From NCBI GenBank assembly GCA_024699055.1, contig JAILQG010000053.1, forward strand, positions 23,636-87,635: a DNA stretch of 64,000 nucleotides. The letters are read 5' to 3'. This DNA comes from Bacteroidales bacterium. GTDB taxonomy: Bacteria; Bacteroidota; Bacteroidia; Bacteroidales; UBA932. This document shows, in pieces, positions 37,203-40,534 of the stretch (the stretch's first letter is position 1; each line of letters starts with the position of its first letter). The notes beneath the pieces are model-generated. The model was not told where the DNA came from. It worked only from the letters and a program-made list of their open reading frames with translations, and did no database searches. A program made the position numbers and the translations under genes.

Positions 37203-37874
37203 ATGAAAAAGTACTTTGCAGAATGCATCGGCACGTTCGTGCTCACGTTCCTCGGCTGCGGAACAGCAATGTTCCTCGGCTGCACCACTCCCGCAGGAGT
37301 TGTAGGTACCGCCATCGCATTCGGTCTGGCCGTAGTTGCCATGGCCTATACGATCGGTGAAATCTCCGGCTGCCATATCAACCCGGCCATCACCCTCGGC
37401 GTCGCACTCAGCGGACGCATGAGCTGGAAAGACGCTGTCGGCTACTGGTGCGGCCAGATTATCGGCGGTATCATCGCAGGCGCCCTGCTCCTCCTCGTAG
37501 TGAATGTTACCGGCGCAACCGACCTTACCGGCGGCCTGGGCACCAACGGCGTAGCCAATGCCGGCGGCCCGTGGGGCGCATGCCTCGTGGAAGTGATTGC
37601 AACCTTCATCTTCGTCCTCGTAGTGCTCGGCACCACCGACGCCAAGAAGGGAGCCGGCAAGCCCGCCGGCCTTGCAATCGGTCTCAGCCTCATTCTCATC
37701 CACCTCGTGTGCATCAACCTCACCGGCACATCCGTGAACCCCGCCCGCTCCATCGGTCCCGCCATCTTCGCAGGTGGCCAGGCCCTGAAGGACCTCTGGG
37801 TGTTCATCGTTGCCCCGCTTGTTGGCGGCGCACTCGCAGCCCCCGTCTGGGCTTGCCTCAGCAAGGAGAAATAG
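37203..37874 (+). CDS. aqpZ: MIP family channel (aquaporin Z-like)
   Basis: 223 aa; CHINPAITLGVAL and SVNPARSIGPAI (two NPA boxes). Confidence 0.95.
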   Translation: MKKYFAECIGTFVLTFLGCGTAMFLGCTTPAGVVGTAIAFGLAVVAMAYTIGEISGCHINPAITLGVALSGRMSWKDAVGYWCGQIIGGIIAGALLLLVVNVTGATDLTGGLGTNGVANAGGPWGACLVEVIATFIFVLVVLGTTDAKKGAGKPAGLAIGLSLILIHLVCINLTGTSVNPARSIGPAIFAGGQALKDLWVFIVAPLVGGALAAPVWACLSKEK

Positions 37875-37894: not shown

Positions 37895-37929
37895 AAAGAG
37901 GACGGCCTCCACGGTCGTCCTCTTTTTTT
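37895..37929 (+). terminator. Rho-independent terminator after aquaporin
   Basis: AAAGAGGACGGCCtccacGGTCGTCCTCTTTTTTT. Confidence 0.8.
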
Positions 37930-37946
37930 GCGAGTGCGGCGGAGTC

Positions 37947-38112
37947 GGTAGGCAGCAGTCGCCTCTGAGAGGCGTGTCCACCCCCGGACACGGGCAGGGG
38001 GATGGGGCCCGTCGGCAGCAAGTTATCGCGCAGCGATGACGAAGATGACGATGGGAGGGGCCGGAGCGAACGGAGAGAGCGGAGTCCTCGAAGAGGCGAG
38101 CTACTGCCTGCC
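37947..38112. repeat. inverted-repeat-bounded multi-hairpin element of unknown class
   Basis: GGTAGGCAGCAGTCGCCTC (37947-37965) pairs with GAGGCGAGCTACTGCCTGCC (38093-38112); at least four short internal hairpins. Confidence 0.6.
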
Positions 38113-38135
38113 GCGAAGCCGCGGCGGACAAGCAA

Positions 38136-39542
38136 CTAGAAGAGGTAGCCGGTGTTGATGTAGAAGGCGCCGGTACCGTCCTGCCCCTTCAGGGGCCCGC
38201 CGAAGGCCGTAACGGGAGCGCCGTATTCGAAGGCGATGATGAAGTTCTCGTTCATGATGAACCTCAGGCCCGAACCGACCGTGATATGCGGACGGTCCTT
38301 CTCCAATCCCTGCGAAATGTACTTGTCGTAGCCCGGCACCGGGGACGGAGCAAGATCATCAAGCACCTGCTTGTCGGTGGTCGGGGCAGTCGGAGTATCG
38401 ACATGCAGCGACATATCCCTGTTCCTCGTGACCATCGAGCCGTCACTGAAGAACGTGAGTCCGAAGGCGATGTTCTGCTTCCAGAGCACGAATTTGACGA
38501 ACCTCCAGCGGAACTCGGCCGTCCACGTGGCCATGTCGAGCCCGACCACCCTGTCGCGCATAATGCCGCGCACGGTGTCGAAACCACCCATGCCGTCCTT
38601 GTCGAAATCCCTCTCCATGCGGGTGAGATACGGAAGGATGTAGAACGGAGCCGAATCCCCGAAAGTCCCCTGATAGTTCAGGCGGTAGGCGAAGGTCAGG
38701 ATATCATTGTCTATCAGTGGGAAATACTGCCTCCAGGTAGCTGAATAGCGGTAGAACGGGTTCTTGGTGCCCAGCCACTTCGGCGCTAGAATCATGTGCG
38801 CCTCGGCCCAGATTCCGCGCGTGGGCGCACCTTCCTTGTCGCGGGTGTCGTACACCATACCCATGCGAACGGCGGAAGAAAAGCCTCCCCCGCTCTCATC
38901 GGCCCCGATCAGCCCCCATTTCACATAATCGTCGTACAGGGTCGACTCTTCATTGAAGACACCGAGCCCCTCCTTGCCCTTGTTGATGCTCTCGCGGTTT
39001 ATGCTCTGGATGCGGAAATAAGAGGGATGATATCCCAGCTCCCACTTAACATGATCGGTGATGTTGCCGGTGAAATCGAGCGCTCCCAGTATCTGGACAC
39101 GGTCAAGCCTGTAATACGGCGAGAAATAGGAGGCCGTCGGGTTCTCGCCATTGCCGGCGTCGACTCTGACGGCGTCATAGAAGGATTGGTATCCTCCGAA
39201 ACCGTAGAAGTCCATGGCCTTGTCGATGTTGGCCGTGGCACCGGCGAAGATACGCACCCCCGGGATGAGGGTCTTGTTATCGTGATAGAGCGTAAACAGC
39301 TTGGAACCCTTGCTGAAGAACGACGCCTCAACATAGGTATTGGAGTTGTAATTGGGGTAATTGCTGCCGTCGCCGAAATCGTAAAAATTGCAGAGCGCGC
39401 CGAGCTGGAAGCCCTTGTCGGCATCGAAAGCGATTGCGGGAACAGGGCCGAGGCTGAGCCCTGTCTTGACTTCGTCCGCCGTCTGCGCATATGCTGAAAC
39501 ACCCGCAAGCGCGAGCGCCCCGATCAGGAGAGACTTCCTCAT
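38136..39542 (-). CDS. BamA/Omp85-family surface antigen-like outer membrane protein
   Basis: 468 aa from MRKSLLIGALALAGVSAYAQ; RGMVYDTRDKEGAPTRGIWAEAH; barrel ending in GYLF. Confidence 0.8.
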   Translation of the reverse strand: MRKSLLIGALALAGVSAYAQTADEVKTGLSLGPVPAIAFDADKGFQLGALCNFYDFGDGSNYPNYNSNTYVEASFFSKGSKLFTLYHDNKTLIPGVRIFAGATANIDKAMDFYGFGGYQSFYDAVRVDAGNGENPTASYFSPYYRLDRVQILGALDFTGNITDHVKWELGYHPSYFRIQSINRESINKGKEGLGVFNEESTLYDDYVKWGLIGADESGGGFSSAVRMGMVYDTRDKEGAPTRGIWAEAHMILAPKWLGTKNPFYRYSATWRQYFPLIDNDILTFAYRLNYQGTFGDSAPFYILPYLTRMERDFDKDGMGGFDTVRGIMRDRVVGLDMATWTAEFRWRFVKFVLWKQNIAFGLTFFSDGSMVTRNRDMSLHVDTPTAPTTDKQVLDDLAPSPVPGYDKYISQGLEKDRPHITVGSGLRFIMNENFIIAFEYGAPVTAFGGPLKGQDGTGAFYINTGYLF

Positions 39543-40534
39543 GCCTGTGCCTTCTTTGCCGCCCTGCGGTCCTTCAGGTTGAAGCAGCCGGCTACAGTGA
39601 GACCGGCGATGATGTGCCAGATGCCCCACCATGCGGTGATGACCAGCATGCCGCCGGGGATGCCGTTGGGATACTCGGGCATGAAGTTCGCGAAGATCTG
39701 GTTGGCTCCGAGCATGAGCGCCAGGCCGAGACCACTGTTCTGGATACCGGTTTCGATGGTCATGGTGCGGCGGTCGCGCTCACCCACCTTGAAAGTACTG
39801 CCGACAGTGTACCCTATGCACAGGGCCAGCAGGTTATGTATGAATACGATCAGGAAAATGTACTTGACGCACTGCAGGAAGGCCTCGATGTTACCCATGA
39901 ACGAAAGCACCACCATTGCCAGGAAGAAGATGATGCTGAACCACTGGAAGGGCTTCTTCATCTTTTCCGCAGCCTTGGGGAAGAAATGCGCGGTGAGAAT
40001 ACCGAGCGTGAGCGGAATGCCGAGCAGGATCACGATGGTCTTGAACACATCCCAGAAAGGAATGTGCAGGTTGGGCACCGCGCCCACGAGGGTGGAGAGG
40101 TCGGCCACCTTGATGTAGAGGTTGCCGTAGGCCCAGAAATTGAACGGCGTCATAATCATGGCAAGGGCCGTGGAGATGGCGGTGAGGCTCACCGAAAGCT
40201 CGATATTGGCCTTGCTGAGGCTTGATATGAAGTTGCTGATATTGCCGCCGGGGCAGGATGCGACCAGAATCATGCCCATTGCCATCGAGAACGAGATGGC
40301 AGGACCGAGCGCCCATGCGAGCAGGAAGGTGAAAAGCGGCAGAAGGACCAGCTGGCAGAGCATTCCGAGCAATACCGACTTGGGTTTCTTGAAAACTTCA
40401 ACGAAAATCCGGGGCTTGATGCCGAGGGCCACTCCATACATGACGAAAGCCAGGATAATGTTGATGGTGTTCATGCCGCCCGCATTGAGCGTTACGACGA
40501 TGGAATCAATTTTCTGAACGATTTCAGGTGCCAT
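39539..40534 (-). CDS. bile acid:sodium symporter (BASS) family transporter
   Basis: 331 aa polytopic; SCPGGNISNF; ETGIQNSGLGLAL. Confidence 0.9.
   Translation of the reverse strand: MAPEIVQKIDSIVVTLNAGGMNTINIILAFVMYGVALGIKPRIFVEVFKKPKSVLLGMLCQLVLLPLFTFLLAWALGPAISFSMAMGMILVASCPGGNISNFISSLSKANIELSVSLTAISTALAMIMTPFNFWAYGNLYIKVADLSTLVGAVPNLHIPFWDVFKTIVILLGIPLTLGILTAHFFPKAAEKMKKPFQWFSIIFFLAMVVLSFMGNIEAFLQCVKYIFLIVFIHNLLALCIGYTVGSTFKVGERDRRTMTIETGIQNSGLGLALMLGANQIFANFMPEYPNGIPGGMLVITAWWGIWHIIAGLTVAGCFNLKDRRAAKKAQA

Follow-up and report, generated by a model that had tools for sequence, protein, structure and literature searches.

Positions 37936-38122 on the + strand of the window (the whole stretch of 64,000 nucleotides that was analysed) hold one copy of a dispersed structured repeat, delimited by its outermost complementary GCGGC and GCCGC. 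The repeat family was previously unlisted and is scattered through one family of gut Bacteroidales. Judged by covariation, a long self-complementary stem holds together a core that folds like an RNA pseudoknot. We consider it probable that the feature is one copy of a selfish palindromic element that is non-autonomous, is dispersed within this one Bacteroidales family and has its fold maintained on the + strand. This reading is based on the occurrence in many genomes and contexts and on covariation that far exceeds both kinds of control, shuffled and slid, also in the pseudoknot, which lay outside the search model. It is further based on in-frame copies in both orientations, element-free orthologues, an excess of G.U over A.C pairs in the closing stem, co-occurrence with Y1 transposases and the lack of Rfam, plasmid or phage matches. 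An earlier, sequence-only reading of this locus had proposed a structured RNA or, alternatively, a mobile repeat of the non-autonomous kind. What it observed is confirmed, and its interpretation was right in outline, in that we find a dispersed, structured and probably mobile repeat: it is multi-copy and its fold covaries, pseudoknot included. It is not a classical MITE, though, and two of the proposed internal hairpins had to be replaced. A single copy and an absence of covariation had been named as findings that would speak against the proposal, and neither was found.

The window copy and its fold

The copy lies between two converging genes, a major intrinsic protein (MIP, aquaporin) gene at 37203-37874 (+) and an Omp85-family gene at 38136-39632 (-), which had earlier been termed BamA-like. 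In agreement with the location first described, it adjoins the latter and begins just past the terminator-like hairpin of the aquaporin gene, an inverted repeat followed by T-rich DNA (37895-37925, +; inverted-repeat search and sequence) that belongs to the neighbour and lies outside the element. The strings quoted in the sequence-only reading are all present in place, with GGTAGGCAGCAGTCGCCTC starting at 37947 and its partner ending at 38112. With the covariance model the copy scores 146.8 bits, and 157 of 157 model positions are matched. A fold check had been suggested, and the + strand of 37920-38140 indeed folds with -102 kcal/mol (z = -3.42), a value that none of 200 shuffles equals. For a palindrome a good fold of the - strand is likewise expected, and it was obtained (z = -3.23).

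Four parts make up the fold, all given here on the + strand: the long stem P1 on the outside, the H-type pseudoknot of P2 and PK, an arm made of P3, J and P4, and the hairpin P5. A covariance model, likewise suggested at the outset, yielded many copies, and the fold covaries strongly. In an alignment of 41 sequences, 89.8% of the paired cells are standard, with 450 two-sided changes versus 71-120 when the partners were slid. For 67 copies from many subfamilies the values are 95.0% and 930 versus 122-178; this second alignment was fitted to the model and hence leans to the model helices, while the pseudoknot is outside the model. The following values refer to the 67 copies. P1 (37947-37973 with 38086-38112) varies in sequence between copies, has two-sided changes at 23 of 23 pairs and is paired in 93% of cells. 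Further outward, the complementarity of GCGGC and GCCGC that had been noticed is present as an outer helix P0 (37936-37940 with 38118-38122), assigned by fold and sequence, without covariation as a basis. P2, the first stem of the pseudoknot, is the hairpin GTGTCC-ACCCCC-GGACAC (37974-37991), with 98.7% of cells paired and two-sided changes at five of six pairs. Its loop contains CCCCC (37981-37985), which pairs with GGGGG (37997-38001) to form PK. Here 98.1% of cells are paired, one pair occurs as C-G, U-A, G-C and A-U, and the variants include CCCUC/GAGGG, CCCGC/GCGGG, UCCGC/GCGGA and CCCGU/ACGGG. P3 (CCCGTCG, 38008-38014, with CGATGGG, 38049-38055) and J (AGC, 38017-38019, with GAT, 38044-38046, including a purine mismatch) together show two-sided changes at 8 of 10 pairs; in J the outer pairs covary and the middle pair is often non-standard. 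P4, GTTATCGC-GCA-GCGATGAC (38022-38040), is variable in length, paired in 96.6% of cells and changed on both sides at all 8 of its 8 pairs, and is absent from some copies (L093/L105). P5, CCGGAGCGAACGGAGAGAGCGG (38061-38082, helices 6-8), is also of variable length and is paired in 95-98% of cells.

Comparative data thus bear out the long closing inverted repeat (P1), the GTGTCC-accccc-GGACAC hairpin (P2) and the ATCGC-gca-GCGAT hairpin, which lies within P4. Two further hairpins proposed from the single sequence did not hold. The CGGGC...GCCCG hairpin is not conserved in other subfamilies and was rejected; CCCGNNG pairs there with CNNTGGG, that is as P3. The GCCTCtgaGAGGC hairpin is unsupported by the comparison and competes with P1. 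The pseudoknot pairing and P5 had not been seen in that reading.

A G.U pair is common in P3 and a U.G pair in P4. For P1, scored without preference for either, G.U outnumbers A.C by 53 to 18, which suggests that it is the + strand that folds; with arms partly related by descent, the p value of this bias is no more than indicative. A loop of one base that spans a stem of five pairs is typical of A-form pseudoknots of the H type, and for this reason an RNA form appears likelier than a DNA cruciform. Small bacterial palindromic repeats are usually described by their sequence; the present family is recognisable mainly by its fold.

Distribution and copies inside genes

The own genome of the window copy (1.87 Mb, 112 contigs) contains one diverged copy in BLAST (C44:5228-5390, 76% identical) and two or three copies in all. 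The proposed BLAST search for relatives was productive beyond this genome, too, with matches in 63 of 101 genus genomes, often several in each. A 36-base core pattern has exact matches in 116 stretches of GTDB contigs, and among the matches listed (116 in total) 80 of 80 titles name a Bacteroidales or Bacteroidia MAG, many from ruminant or horse gut. The covariance model R1, built from 41 copies, finds the element, about 115-200 bases long across copies, in 50 of 61 genus genomes. The number varies from 0 to 37 between species, with the maximum in the near-complete genome G016 and none in several other near-complete genomes. A sample of the family gave copies in 30 of 100 genomes and 9 of 26 genera. 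Outside this Bacteroidales family the model found 0 copies in 149 order genomes and 297 phylum genomes, searched with strict filters that may miss weak relatives and in samples that do not include Rickettsia. No Rfam family matches at curated score, and a riboswitch or known ncRNA was rejected on this ground. An origin from phages or plasmids was likewise rejected, since the core pattern has no exact match in IMG/VR and the element no BLAST match in PLSDB or INPHARED.

Copies are found between genes and also in frame within genes, some of them essential, in both orientations. Open frames cross copies in murB, dnaX, rfbB, mtaB, hutI, a MATE transporter gene, yggS-like, comF-like, aminotransferase and ygiQ-like genes and others; only open-frame cases were listed, and the counts say nothing on how often insertions break genes. 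Most gene names come from sequence recognition, the MATE assignment from Pfam, and RfbB and MurB from solved homologues. In-gene copies add about 40 residues, located in loops: compared with the solved homologues, RfbB of L424 has approximately 43 and MurB of L173 approximately 36 extra residues at the insertion. Element-free orthologues exist for yggS and hutI. A self-splicing intron was rejected, as copies within genes lie in either orientation and leave the frame open. Insertion at the centre of a host palindrome was considered for yggS (L267) and hutI (L094) and dropped, the element-free orthologues having no convincing palindromes. The addition of tens of residues to enzyme loops, as in MurB and DnaX, across a gut bacterial family opens two questions to direct test, how well in-frame insertions are tolerated and which enzyme mobilises the element.

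Other inserts occupy the same places. The hutI linker of different species (L317, L321, L322, L327, L351) contains other short palindromes of CGTC-REP type (GTCATTC...GAATC), and the hutI loop is an insertion-tolerant hot spot. In an endonuclease-like gene (L397, G045:C18:16100-17000) a different structured in-frame insert lies in the same gene loop as in L130/L143. Its core is unrelated and is enclosed by an outer stem of 21 bp that pairs perfectly; the insert possibly represents a second family of such elements.

Known repeats and the candidate mobiliser

By analogy, the element works like RPE or MITE, to which it is likened in behaviour. RPE have been described as inserted in frame within protein genes of Rickettsia (PMC10969869, PMC3733652). 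By description they resemble our element as dispersed palindromic repeats of approximately 150 bases that often lie in frame inside unrelated protein genes and whose mobiliser is unknown; the copies found here also sit in frame in unrelated protein genes that stay open. In contrast to RPE, the present element belongs to another phylum, occurs in both orientations and has a covarying pseudoknotted core and copy-variable arms. With MITEs such as ERIC, RUP, NEMIS and QMITE (70-300 bases; PMC10969869) it shares being noncoding and intergenic, with transcripts predicted to fold. MITEs are derived from insertion sequences and carry conserved terminal inverted repeats and target duplications (PMC10969869). 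The arms of our element differ between copies, although a few subfamilies share them, and because the arms are not conserved and no clean target duplication is shown, it is not a classical MITE. Its distinguishing features are the covarying pseudoknot and the copy-specific arms. Between the sister genomes G016 and G060 one site was found that is filled in the former and lacks the element in the latter, its flanks being 96% identical. AATG stands at both ends of the stretch that differs, and some unpaired sequence is also gone, so that a deletion is here as likely as an insertion.

Spread of the selfish element would proceed by copying via an enzyme encoded elsewhere that reads the folded single strand, either DNA or RNA, and insertions would survive only where they are harmless. 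Y1 (HUH) transposases are the leading candidate for the putative mobiliser. With this mobiliser named, the selfish element would be a REP/REPIN-like element moved by Y1 transposases of RAYT type that recognise hairpins of single-stranded DNA, a possibility that we entertain tentatively and would not favour. Like REP/REPIN-RAYT systems (PMC3733652), the element is palindromic and dispersed, is also found in genes and has a similar GAGCGAAGCGAA hairpin; this hairpin, P5, is similar to short palindromes that are also inserted in these loops of hutI and mtaB. Among genomes with at least five copies, 28 of 29 have Y1_Tnp, versus 17 of the 32 others, and across these 61 genomes its presence tracks copy number (Fisher p 5e-4, Spearman 0.53), a correlation taken over the genomes as they stand, shared ancestry included. 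REPs have a length of 20-40 bases, are tagged with GTAG or CGTC and are located on the flanks of RAYT genes (PMC3733652). The present element, in contrast, measures about 115-200 bases, is not a tagged palindrome of 20-40 bp, bears neither of these tags, and no common tag was found at the outer end of its copies. Nor does it flank the Y1 genes examined: a flanking position was sought at 24 Y1 loci, of which only one has a strong copy near, approximately 3 kb off, and the palindromes seen beside the genes examined are different ones. The pseudoknot and the G.U bias, suggestive of RNA, also speak against recognition of a DNA hairpin. The genome of the window has no Y1 match and only two or three copies; these copies, including that in the window, are therefore probably relics. 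Among the genus genomes, L372-L391 include several divergent Y1_Tnp-like genes of approximately 300 residues, each with its own short flanking palindromes.

Copy-specific arms and less likely readings

The outer arms comprise approximately 22-35 pairs, often match perfectly and are variable among copies. Within one genome the P1 arms of different copies are unlike, yet complementary within each copy. In G449 several copies have a nearly identical P2/PK core and strongly different arms that are still complementary, and three copies of one MAG (L055, L072, L103) behave in the same way. Other subfamilies (G016, G037) have the same arms in many copies. At an orthologous site in mtaB (L079 versus L089) five neighbouring P1 pairs are changed on both sides, while in other orthologous pairs at most one such change is seen. 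Fold selection, hairpin-templated correction, gene conversion between copies and arms made at insertion could all contribute to this complementarity. For the selfish element we suppose that fold selection would keep the arms complementary, perhaps aided by hairpin-templated (quasipalindrome) correction. That copies with unrelated arms pair almost perfectly implies site-by-site selection, or hairpin-templated repair with a measurable trace. Arms that are inverted copies of the target were suggested by hutI L094 and by L433 of G449; the RfbB copy L424 gave no support and this origin is not claimed.

Arms that are maintained at single sites could, as a counterpoint to the selfish reading, mean function at each site. 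The element could be a family of functional RNA genes, each copy transcribed and active, for instance in regulation or by binding a protein, and its dispersal a duplication of useful genes. Such a family would fit the paired changes at the one orthologous mtaB site and the retention of the fold in almost all copies (95% of cells); covariation should be diluted where dead copies are present (PMC11234323). We nevertheless regard it as unlikely, given the copies in both orientations within unrelated genes, the numbers ranging from 0 to 37 between species with several near-complete genomes having none, and the position of both copies in the genome of the window outside gene terminators.

Slightly more doubtful is that the element represents the end structure of an IS1182-type insertion sequence, with single copies as solo ends or miniature derivatives. 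In L100 and L167 an IS1182-like transposase gene (PF13751) lies between two inverted copies, which are candidate ends of this insertion sequence, and in L101 the same inverted pair stands 89 bases apart without this gene. The window copy resembles the right-end type (GCCTCTGAGAGGCG). Most copies are single, however, without transposase or partner copy, those in genes among them, and the arms lack the conservation to be expected of terminal repeats. Equally improbable is a SINE-like element of bacteria, a mobile RNA with a pseudoknot that, in its folded form, would be the substrate of an enzyme acting in trans; if true, rebuilding or proof-reading of the long stem at each site would give every copy its own nearly perfect arms. 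Least probable is that the folded RNA is itself the mobile intermediate and, in the manner of a bacterial SINE, is reverse-transcribed in trans. The G.U bias, the + strand specificity and the H-pseudoknot of RNA type, whose one-base loop crosses the deep groove, imply that an RNA form is of importance, but a target-primed signature or a 5' truncation pattern is not established.

Some copies are part of, or host to, other mobile DNA. In L168 (G093:C74, approximately 278-1540) a transposon-like insert of approximately 1.28 kb with two IS3-like frames lies inside P2/PK of one copy. In G016, more than 10 copies of one subfamily (L238-L251) are contained in a larger dispersed repeat with conserved flanks and look as if amplified as a bigger unit.
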